Assembly (NCBI GenBank): GCA_903896045.1
Contig: CAITWD010000017.1
Location: 62,001-126,000, forward strand
DNA length: 64,000 nt
Source: an uncultured Actinomycetes bacterium
GTDB lineage: Bacteria > Actinomycetota > Thermoleophilia > Miltoncostaeales > Miltoncostaeaceae
Direction of reading: 5' to 3'
Part shown: positions 21,391 to 24,278 of the stretch, piece by piece
Layout: every line of letters starts with the position of its first letter
How positions within the stretch are numbered: the first letter of the stretch is position 1
The notes under the pieces: model-generated
Told to the model about the DNA's origin: nothing
What the model saw: only the letters and a program-made list of their open reading frames with translations
The model's database searches: none
Made by a program: the position numbers and the translations under genes

Positions 21391-21396
21391 TAGCCT
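21391..21396 (+). promoter_or_regulatory. -10 box (TAGCCT) of the guaB3 leader
   Basis: TANNNT hexamer 6 nt before the ATG of the short ORF at 21403, the same arrangement as at other leaderless genes in this window. A TTGAGG lies 23 nt upstream, too far for a standard -35. Confidence 0.4.
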
Positions 21397-21402
21397 CACA
21401 CC

Positions 21403-21492
21403 ATGAAGTGTCGTGCCCACCTCGGGCGCCAAACGGCGACCTTTGACGACCCAAGTTCGGCTCTTGCCTGCTTGGGTCGCGTGCGTTTTTAA
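21403..21492 (+). CDS. Possible 29-aa leader peptide upstream of guaB3
   Basis: An uninterrupted 29-codon ORF (MKCRAHLGRQ, then TATFDDPSSALACLGRVRF) that begins at leaderless spacing from a -10 box and ends with TAA inside the T-run of the terminator described next. Nothing shows it is translated. If it is, a ribosome would cover and melt the terminator stem, giving translation-dependent readthrough into guaB3-guaA. No run of one amino acid is present, so it would not be a classic amino-acid attenuator. It may be chance. Confidence 0.3.
   Translation: MKCRAHLGRQTATFDDPSSALACLGRVRF
21447..21490 (+). terminator. Terminator/attenuator hairpin before guaB3
   Basis: CGACCCAAG (21447-21455) pairs perfectly with CTTGGGTCG (21471-21479), 15-nt loop, then TTTTT at 21486-21490. 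An overlapping alternative pairing, GCGACC (21436-21441) with GGTCGC (21475-21480), would exclude it. It may end the PfkB transcript or act as an attenuator. Confidence 0.65.
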
Positions 21493-21548
21493 GGCAAGGT
21501 GTGGCGCGCGAAGTGGCGGTTGACATCGGGGACAAAAGGAGCGAGCGC

Positions 21549-22706
21549 GTGGAGATCGAGATCGGACGAGGCAAGAAGGGCCGTCGGGCGTACGGCTTTG
21601 ACGAAATCGCAATCGTTCCGAGTCGAAGGACGCGTGATCCTGAAGATGTTGATCTGACCTGGCGCATTGGTGGCCACGAGTTCGGGTTGCCATTACTCGC
21701 CTCGGCAATGGATGGCGTGGTCAACGTCAACACCGCCACCATCATGGGCAAGCTTGGTGGGATGGGCGTGTTGAACCTCGAAGGCATCCAAGTGCGGTAT
21801 GACGACGCAGACGCCGAACTCGAGCGCATCTCGCAGCTTCCCGTCGCCGAGGCGACACGAGGACTGCAGAAGGTCTACCAAGAGCCCATCAAGGCTGAGC
21901 TGATCGCGCAGCGCATCCGCGAGCTGAAGGCGAATGGCGTTGTTGTGGCGGGATCGTTGACTCCACAGCGTGTCCGTCAGTACATCGGACCGGCCCTTGA
22001 AGCGGGTCTGGACTTCCTTGTGATCCAGGGAACTGTCGTCAGTGCAGAGCATGTCTCGACCGTCGCCGAGCCGCTCGACATCACCCGCTTTATCGCGGAG
22101 CTTCCGATCCCTGTGATCGTCGGCGGATGCGCCTCCTTCCAGACGGCATTGCATTTGATGCGTACTGGTGCGGTTGGCGTGCTTGTGGGTGTGGGTCCGG
22201 GTGCAGCCTGTACGACCCGTCAGGTGATTGGCGTCGGGGTTCCGCAGGCGACGGCGATTGCCGATGCCGCCGGTGCACGGATGCAACACCTCTTGGAGAC
22301 GGGTCAGTATGTCAGCGTGATCGCTGACGGTGGCATGAGCTACGGAGGCGACCTCGCCAAGGCAATCGCCTGCGGGGCAGATGCCTGCATGATCGGTTCA
22401 CCGCTCGCCAAGGCAGTTGAGGCGCCTGGTCGCGGTTACCACTGGGGAATGGCGACCTTCCACCCGACCTTGCCACGTGGAACACGCGTCAAGACGAACA
22501 CGATCGGGACGCTCGAGGAAATCATCACTGGCCCCGCCCATGAAAATGACGGTTCGCTTAACTTGAGCGGCGGGCTGCGGACGGCAATGGCCACCTGTGG
22601 CTACGACACGATTCAAAGCTTCCAAAAGTGTGAGGTCATGGTGGCTCCCGCATTGCGCAGTGAAGGCAAGAAATTGCAGCAAGCGCAATCGGTGGGGATG
22701 GGATAG
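21549..22706 (+). CDS. guaB3: GuaB3-family IMP dehydrogenase-related protein
   Basis: 385 aa TIM-barrel protein of the GuaB3 family found in actinobacteria and cyanobacteria. The start EIGRGKKGRRAYGFDEIAIV and PSRRTRDPEDVDLTW are family hallmarks; there are no CBS domains. The catalytic-type cysteine is retained in GVGPGAACTTRQVIGVGVPQ, with VIADGGMSYGGDLAKAIACG after it, so IMP oxidation or a related purine reaction is possible; the family's precise role is debated. The GTG at 21549 has AAAAGGAG 7 nt upstream, so I prefer it to the GTG at 21501. guaA follows with no gap, which supports a role in guanine nucleotide supply. Confidence 0.92.
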   Translation: MEIEIGRGKKGRRAYGFDEIAIVPSRRTRDPEDVDLTWRIGGHEFGLPLLASAMDGVVNVNTATIMGKLGGMGVLNLEGIQVRYDDADAELERISQLPVAEATRGLQKVYQEPIKAELIAQRIRELKANGVVVAGSLTPQRVRQYIGPALEAGLDFLVIQGTVVSAEHVSTVAEPLDITRFIAELPIPVIVGGCASFQTALHLMRTGAVGVLVGVGPGAACTTRQVIGVGVPQATAIADAAGARMQHLLETGQYVSVIADGGMSYGGDLAKAIACGADACMIGSPLAKAVEAPGRGYHWGMATFHPTLPRGTRVKTNTIGTLEEIITGPAHENDGSLNLSGGLRTAMATCGYDTIQSFQKCEVMVAPALRSEGKKLQQAQSVGMG

Positions 22707-24278
22707 GTGGCAGACGGTCCCGAGGCACTTGATCCCGAGCTTGCGCGTGCAGTTCCCGGTGGTGTGTTGGTCATTGATTTTGGTGCGCAGTACGCCCAAC
22801 TGATTGCGCGGCGTATTCGTGAGTGCCGGGTCTTTTCGGCCGTTGTGCCGCACGACACGCCCGCAGCAGAAATTGCGCGACTGCAACCGAAAGGCCTGGT
22901 GCTCTCAGGTGGCCCCGCATCGGTGTATGAAGAGGGTGCCCCTGCGTTGAATCGGGAGCTGCTTGAGCTTGGTGTGCCGGTCCTGGGGATTTGTTATGGG
23001 ATGCAGAGCATGGCTCAAGCCCTTGGCGGAGATGTTGCACCCACTGGGACCGCTGAATTTGGCAAGACCCCGCTTGAGGTCATCGGACGGGACGGGCTGC
23101 TGCGTGATGTCCCTATGGACGAGTGCTGGATGAGTCACCGCGACGCGGTGATGAGCGCCCCGTCGGGATTCACGGCAACTGCCCGCACCGCAAGTAGCCC
23201 CGTTGCGGCTATGGAAGATGTGGCCCGCGGGATGTACGGCGTGCAGTTTCACCCTGAGGTCGTGCATACCCCGTACGGCACCGATTTGCTCAAGACCTTT
23301 TTGTTTGAGATCTGCGCATGCGCGCCGACATGGACCCCGGTGCAGGTCATCGAGGACCAGGTGTCCCGTATTCGTGCCCAGGTTGGCGATGAGCGCGTGA
23401 TCTGTGCGCTCTCGGGCGGCGTCGATTCTGCGGTTGCGGCGCTGCTTGTCCATCGCGCCGTCGGCGATCGTTTGACCTGCATATTTGTCGACCATGGCAT
23501 GTTGCGCATGAATGAGGGAACCCAGGTCGAGGAGGCCTTCGGGACCTATTTCAATGTGCCGCTCGTGCATGTGCGCGCTCAAGATCACTTTCTGGCCGAA
23601 CTCGCCGGTGTGACCGACCCAGAAGAGAAGCGCAAGATTGTCGGTCGCGAGTTTATTCGCACTTTCGAAAAGGAAGCGGCGAAGCTGGGTGGAGTTAGGT
23701 TCCTCGTGCAGGGGACCCTGTACTCAGATGTGATCGAATCGGGCTCCCGCGATGCGTCCAAGATTAAGAGTCATCACAACGTGGGTGGCTTGCCTGAGGA
23801 CATGGGTGTGGAGTTGGTTGAACCGCTGCGCCAACTCTTTAAGGATGAAGTACGCGTCGTTGGCGAGGAACTGGGGCTTCCTGAGCGCATGGTTTGGCGT
23901 CAGCCATTCCCGGGCCCCGGTCTTGCGATTCGCATCATCGGTGAGGTGACACGCGAGCGACTTGAGATCTTGCGTCAAGCCGACTTTGTCCTGCAGGAAG
24001 AAATCCGTCGTGCCGGCCTTTATCGAGAGCTGTGGCAGAGCTTTGCGGTGTTGCCTGCGGTGAAGAGCGTTGGCGTTCAGGGCGATGAGCGCACCTATGC
24101 CTATCCAATCGTGATTCGCGCGGTGACCTCCGATGACGCGATGACCGCCGACTGGGCGCGTTTGCCGCATGATCTCTTGCAGCAGATCAGCAGTCGCATC
24201 ATTAACGAAGTGGCAGGCGTCAATCGTGTGGTGCTCGACATCACCTCAAAGCCGCCGGGCACCATCGAGTGGGAATAA
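22707..24278 (+). CDS. guaA: GMP synthase (glutamine-hydrolysing)
   Basis: 523 aa. Converts XMP to GMP with ATP and glutamine. Class I glutaminase domain (about 1-205) with [20 protein letters not shown], the nucleophile cysteine in GICYGMQ and the His/Glu pair in [11 protein letters not shown]. The ATP pyrophosphatase domain begins with the P-loop [14 protein letters not shown], and the C-terminal dimerisation domain ends with [11 protein letters not shown], the canonical terminus. The GTG start immediately follows the guaB3 stop. The order guaB3-guaA channels IMP/XMP to GMP. Confidence 0.97.

Follow-up and report, generated by a model that had tools for sequence, protein, structure and literature searches.

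The guaB3-guaA leader of Thermoleophilia, a candidate translation-coupled transcription attenuator resembling pyrBI

The guaB3 and guaA genes of a bacterium of the class Thermoleophilia lie behind a gene for a pfkB-family hexose kinase in a stretch of 64,000 nucleotides (nt), here called the window, and are preceded by the leader that is the subject of this work. The genome that holds the window (G000) is 1.67 Mb in size and 99.85% complete, and bins named Miltoncostaea and Miltoncostaeaceae are among its close relatives. The guaB3 gene (21549..22706; TIGR01304 GuaB3, 515 bits) starts at GTG 21549 behind the Shine-Dalgarno sequence AAAAGGAG (21534..21541), a ribosome-binding site that an earlier note on this DNA had already recognised, and is followed by guaA, which encodes guanosine monophosphate (GMP) synthase (22707..24278; NF000848, 789 bits) and whose true start codon may be further in. 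These genes, which serve the final steps of GMP synthesis, and all leader features described below are on the forward strand. From comparison with relatives we propose, with moderate confidence, that the leader could be a translation-coupled transcription attenuator similar in kind to that of pyrBI.

The leader in the window begins with a putative promoter, composed of the -10 hexamer TAGCCT (21391..21396) and a weak -35. Near its 5' end, ATG 21403, 6 nt past the hexamer, opens a reading frame of 29 codons (21403..21492) whose TAA stop (21490-21492) takes its T from the last T of the run TTTTT (21486..21490); GTG 21408 opens only 12 codons; and GTG 21413, 16 nt after the hexamer, opens an open reading frame (ORF) of 36 codons (21413..21523, stop 21521-21523) that spans the hairpin and stops 25 nt short of guaB3. 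The hairpin has an outer stem, the 5' arm (21447..21456) and 3' arm (21470..21479) of which are placed by the predicted fold and by covariation in 19 relatives, and which includes nine Watson-Crick pairs between CGACCCAAG (21447-21455) and CTTGGGTCG (21471-21479). Inside it the predicted fold gives an inner stem GGC/GCC with the loop TCTT (21459..21468), and the T-run is displaced 6 nt from the outer stem. The earlier note had correctly located the hexamer, the ATG, the 29 codons with their stop in the T-run and the 9-bp stem, as well as the complementarity of GCGACC (21436..21441) to GGTCGC (21475-21480). From these elements it had built a ribosome-dependent attenuator with a leaderless start and a pairing that competes with the terminator.

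Taken by itself the window says little about such a device. A frame of 29 codons is ordinary, as 55% of the ATG or GTG (RTG) codons on the window's forward strand open a frame of at least this length. The whole 181-nt leader folds no better than shuffled sequences (z -0.43); the hairpin by itself folds better than shuffles (z -5.3). A standard terminator scan of the window leader missed the hairpin, as 6 nt separate the T-run from the stem. The hairpin loop also holds CTTGCCT (21463-21469), perfectly complementary to AGGCAAG (21492-21498) just past the T-run, but inspection of L002 and L005 revealed no such pairing, and this possible pseudoknot is probably due to chance. The window sequence alone being indecisive, comparison with relatives was needed.

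We located guaB3 in 39 of the 42 genomes of the order and read the leaders from those loci; f1 denotes the family of the window, and f2, f3, f5, f7 and f11 are other families. In f1, 22 leaders have a TAnnnT hexamer at the corresponding position, and a hairpin follows it in all except L020 (21 of 22), with its 5' arm mostly 38-52 nt past the hexamer. In most leaders the hairpin is followed by T's, which directly abut the stem in several relatives. The usual arms are ACCCAGG and CCTGGGT, and they enclose an inner stem of free sequence that usually pairs nonetheless. When 19 of the hairpins were aligned, pairing held in 86.8% of cells; the covariation score was 0.335, shuffles giving 0.179, and both sides had changed in 25 cells, compared with 8.3 in shuffles. 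In L120 and L003 the outer stem was placed by inspection, and that of L003 differs entirely in sequence. For the 29 leaders of f1 and f2 the mean hairpin z is about -4.8 (window's family) and -4.6. The alignment of relatives by which the earlier note had proposed to check its reading bears out the terminator stem, while ORF length, stop position and the second pairing are not conserved.

Over 11 genera the outer stem CCCAGG/CCTGGG is near-invariant and the inner stem drifts (for example in L005, L019, L024 and L111). In a scan of 42 genomes, the strict hairpin with its T-tail occurred only at guaB3, and its looser form turned up elsewhere about as often as a reversed-pattern control, so that a regulon sharing the hairpin was rejected. 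The kept outer stem and the near-confinement to guaB3 are what might be expected if a trans-acting protein or ligand bound the hairpin and controlled termination. We nevertheless consider such a binder improbable: families f2 and f7 carry different stem sequences at the same position, the 5' leader is short and shows less structure than expected by chance, and neither the window region nor 11 relatives gave a relevant match in Rfam 15 up to E = 1, which also set aside a known RNA family. Hairpins of the ACCCAGG type are also present upstream of guaB3 in more distant Actinomycetota (L075, L084 and L109), where L084 carries CTGGGTTGTTTT and L109 carries CCTGGGTTTATTG, duplicated. Two further loci, L060 and L068, come from public bins labelled Bifidobacterium breve; their guaB3 is 78-80% identical to this Thermoleophilia protein, and the labels look wrong.

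The second element that the leaders share is a codon near the predicted 5' end of the transcript. In f1, 18 of 22 leaders have an ATG or GTG 11-16 nt downstream of the -10, as do 11 of 12 genera, whereas 2000 dinucleotide-preserving shuffles gave a mean of 3.0 and a maximum of 9 leaders; when each genus is represented by a single leader, the values become 10.2 against 1.7. In the remainder of these leaders RTG codons are depleted (6 against 13.8 expected). The f2 promoter has a clear TTGA -35 and an extended -10, and an NTG codon (TTG, GTG or CTG) stands at one fixed site, 9-10 nt after the -10, in all 13 leaders sampled from 6 genera; in the first f2 set it was present in 10 of 10 leaders against a shuffle mean of 0.5. 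This NTG fits a start codon, as its first base is free and its TG fixed. Assuming a transcription start 7 nt past the -10, codons 9-16 nt after the -10 would lie at about +3 to +10, the yardstick for leaderless translation being an RTG no more than 5 nt from that start. In the window, GTG 21413 aligns with ATG in L002 and with CCG in L003 and L004, and is more likely to be the leader start than ATG 21403. Indeed, neither ATG 21403, nor the length of 29 codons, nor a stop in the T-run is conserved in the three congeners L002-L004. The putative start codon and the hairpin ahead of guaB3 are kept across genera and families, which makes the general layout old.

The third element is the reading frame, for which f2 gives the clearest picture. 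Only one of 441 codons in the NTG frame of f2 is a stop, the other frames having 10 and 7, and the ORFs are open through the terminator in 12 of 13 leaders (7.5 in shuffles, P 0.006). Nine of the 13 end exactly 10 nt inside guaB3, in leaders of 116, 122, 125, 128 or 140 nt whose differences are multiples of three, and three others end 10-12 nt before guaB3. In f3, f5, f7 and f11 the NTG frame is open in 16 of 18 leaders. When these four families and f2 are combined, stops number 4 in 847 codons of the NTG frame against 30 in 1659 of the other frames (Fisher P 0.005), although the P values of these frame tests serve as guides only because the sequences are related. A reading in which the leader ORF would extend GuaB3 at its N terminus was rejected, since the frames are not consistently matched. 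Comparison therefore shows a promoter -10, an NTG codon and a hairpin in the leaders and, in f2, a putative ORF open through the terminator to the start of guaB3.

Other regulatory structures were sought in the 29 leaders of f1 and f2. Between the start codon and the hairpin these leaders are slightly less folded than expected by chance (mean z +0.64 and +0.55). No conserved antiterminator was found, as complementarity to the two terminator arms is at chance level (mean z +0.39 and -0.17 in f1, +0.53 and -0.26 in f2), and GCGACC:GGTCGC is therefore unlikely to act as a switch; coupling of the pyrBI type fits these leaders better than a switch between two structures. A conserved peptide or sensor codons can be discarded too, the leader peptides of f1 and f2 being different and having no common codon run. 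The attenuator in its first form, with a leaderless ATG 21403, a stop in the T-run and GCGACC:GGTCGC as competitor, is thus very improbable: every element is present in the window, but none of the three that define it is conserved in the genus, the pairing is at chance level, and comparison has already largely refuted it. What survives of the earlier proposal is the kind of device, for the start codon and the hairpin are kept and the f2 frame is open to guaB3; the particular start, length, stop and alternative pairing are not. With an unstructured leader and an ORF running through the terminator, the ribosome would be the simplest antiterminating agent.

We thus propose that transcription would start a few nucleotides ahead of the NTG codon, where a ribosome would initiate without a Shine-Dalgarno sequence and would translate a short ORF, variable in sequence, that spans the terminator. 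Translation abreast of RNA polymerase would block the hairpin and allow read-through into guaB3-guaA, whereas with translation lagging, transcription would end at the T-run. The signal could be a polymerase slowed at low guanosine triphosphate (GTP), comparable to uridine triphosphate at pyrBI, or general translation capacity.

In Escherichia coli, the pyrBI terminator sits within the leader peptide gene and a closely following ribosome suppresses termination (PMC4824070, PMC5021804). Like pyrBI with its leader peptide PyrL, the guaB3 leader belongs to a nucleotide-synthesis operon and has a putative intrinsic terminator which, most clearly in f2, lies within a putative leader ORF extending to the structural gene; in both, a competing antiterminator would not be needed, ribosome proximity being what suppresses termination in pyrBI (PMC4824070, PMC5021804). 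The likeness holds for the anatomy, as known here from sequence comparison. The genes are those of purines, the predicted start is a near-leaderless NTG instead of the Shine-Dalgarno start of pyrBI, and the f2 ORFs overlap guaB3 whereas the pyrBI leader ORF ends before the structural gene. Attenuators of the trp/ilv type, including ilvB1 of Mycobacterium tuberculosis, also have a leader ORF and a terminator between the promoter and biosynthetic genes (PMC13236596), but the guaB3 leaders have neither a conserved antiterminator nor sensor codons, and the pathway leads to a nucleotide. Short leaderless ORFs of mycobacteria and their translated upstream ORFs with premature termination (cysteine attenuators, whiB7, and termination shaped by Rho and upstream ORFs) share with the guaB3 leaders the occurrence in Actinobacteria, an RTG near the 5' end, a place upstream of the controlled gene and a peptide sequence that is often not conserved (PMC4633059, PMC12810186, PMC13236596). 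The guaB3 leader differs from them by a hairpin resembling an intrinsic terminator within the ORF, by guaB3 being the downstream gene and by the lack of amino-acid bias. Finally, guanine, ppGpp (guanosine tetraphosphate), phosphoribosyl pyrophosphate and xanthine riboswitches likewise control purine genes from the leader; unlike them, the guaB3 leader has no Rfam match or structured aptamer. We found no guaB attenuator with a leader ORF in the literature, of which subscription papers were mostly outside our coverage.

Several observations weigh against a pyrBI-like attenuator. The distance windows for NTG, including 11-16 nt, and the -10 sites were picked after inspection of the sequences, and the genomes are related. 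L003, L004 and L007 have no start codon. The predicted start codon would be some 5-10 nt inside the transcript and not at its 5' end: in mycobacteria an RTG at the 5' end is sufficient for initiation and the efficiency is lower at +2 to +5 (PMC4633059), which makes the nucleotides ahead of the RTG in f1 a weak point of the model. The family of the window has no frame constraint (13 stops in 674 codons against 16 in 668 and 8 in 660); the start codon is retained and the frame is not, and most ORFs still cross the hairpin, but those of L005 and L006 have 6 codons and stop ahead of it. T-runs are poor in the genus of the window, and two of its three congeners, L003 and L004, combine weak T-runs with the missing start codon. 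Since its T-run is displaced by 6 nt and its family is free of frame constraint, the window's copy may be weak; it looks partly decayed. In genus g9 the leader is gone except in L026, and a -10 lies close in front of a retained guaB3.

The unconstrained frame with its scattered stops, the loss of the leader in most of g9 while guaB3 is kept, and the lack of sensor codons and of an antiterminator would equally suit a fixed leaky terminator without regulation, which would set a low level of guaB3-guaA or mainly stop read-through from the pfkB-like gene. This is a possible explanation, if on the unlikely side, and the same standing is given to its corollary that the 5'-proximal NTG merely loads ribosomes or protects the mRNA. 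It leaves unexplained the f2 frame that is open through the terminator to the guaB3 start, and the low number of further NTG codons in the leaders.

A further observation concerns many Solirubrobacterales-like loci (L048, L056 and L141-L156), in which TAGGAT is found past the leader terminator, some 6 nt ahead of the guaB3 start; this suggests a possible -10 of a second, leaderless guaB3 promoter. Were guaB3 to have its own promoter there, the leader could be an independent small transcript, either a small RNA or the product of a peptide gene, that has a promoter and terminator of its own. To this we give little probability, as a second -10 is not seen in f1 or f2 (in f1, no conserved -10 was noticed downstream of 21490), the peptides are not conserved and the f2 ORFs overlap guaB3.

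The enzyme content of these genomes bears on what the proposed attenuator would control. The genome of the window, its genus and g9 have no canonical inosine monophosphate (IMP) dehydrogenase, while most other genera of the family have both enzymes; the best TIGR01302 match in the window's genome is guaB3 itself, with about 110 bits against a cut-off of 481. Thus GuaB3 probably carries the IMP dehydrogenase step in these genomes and, as the only enzyme of this type found in the window's organism, would put the leader in control of where de novo GMP synthesis begins. The decay of the attenuator may be linked to the loss of the second IMP dehydrogenase, a speculation from two genera.

A more specific version, in which several Thermoleophilia families would share a GTP-sensing counterpart of pyrBI, seems doubtful to us. 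With GTP scarce, the polymerase would lose speed within the G-rich 3' arm (CCTGGG, CCCGGG) while the hairpin is still incomplete and the leader ribosome would catch up; termination would then fail and guaB3-guaA would be made. G-rich 3' arms are common in terminators, and for that reason a GTP-limited polymerase at this arm is a guess.

The textbook case of nucleotide-controlled coupling between ribosome and polymerase is that of pyrimidines in enterobacteria. If the attenuator proposed here is real, it would be an independent invention of such coupling, for guanine nucleotides, in a deep actinobacterial class, with near-leaderless translation as its basis, and guanine synthesis would be tied directly to translation.
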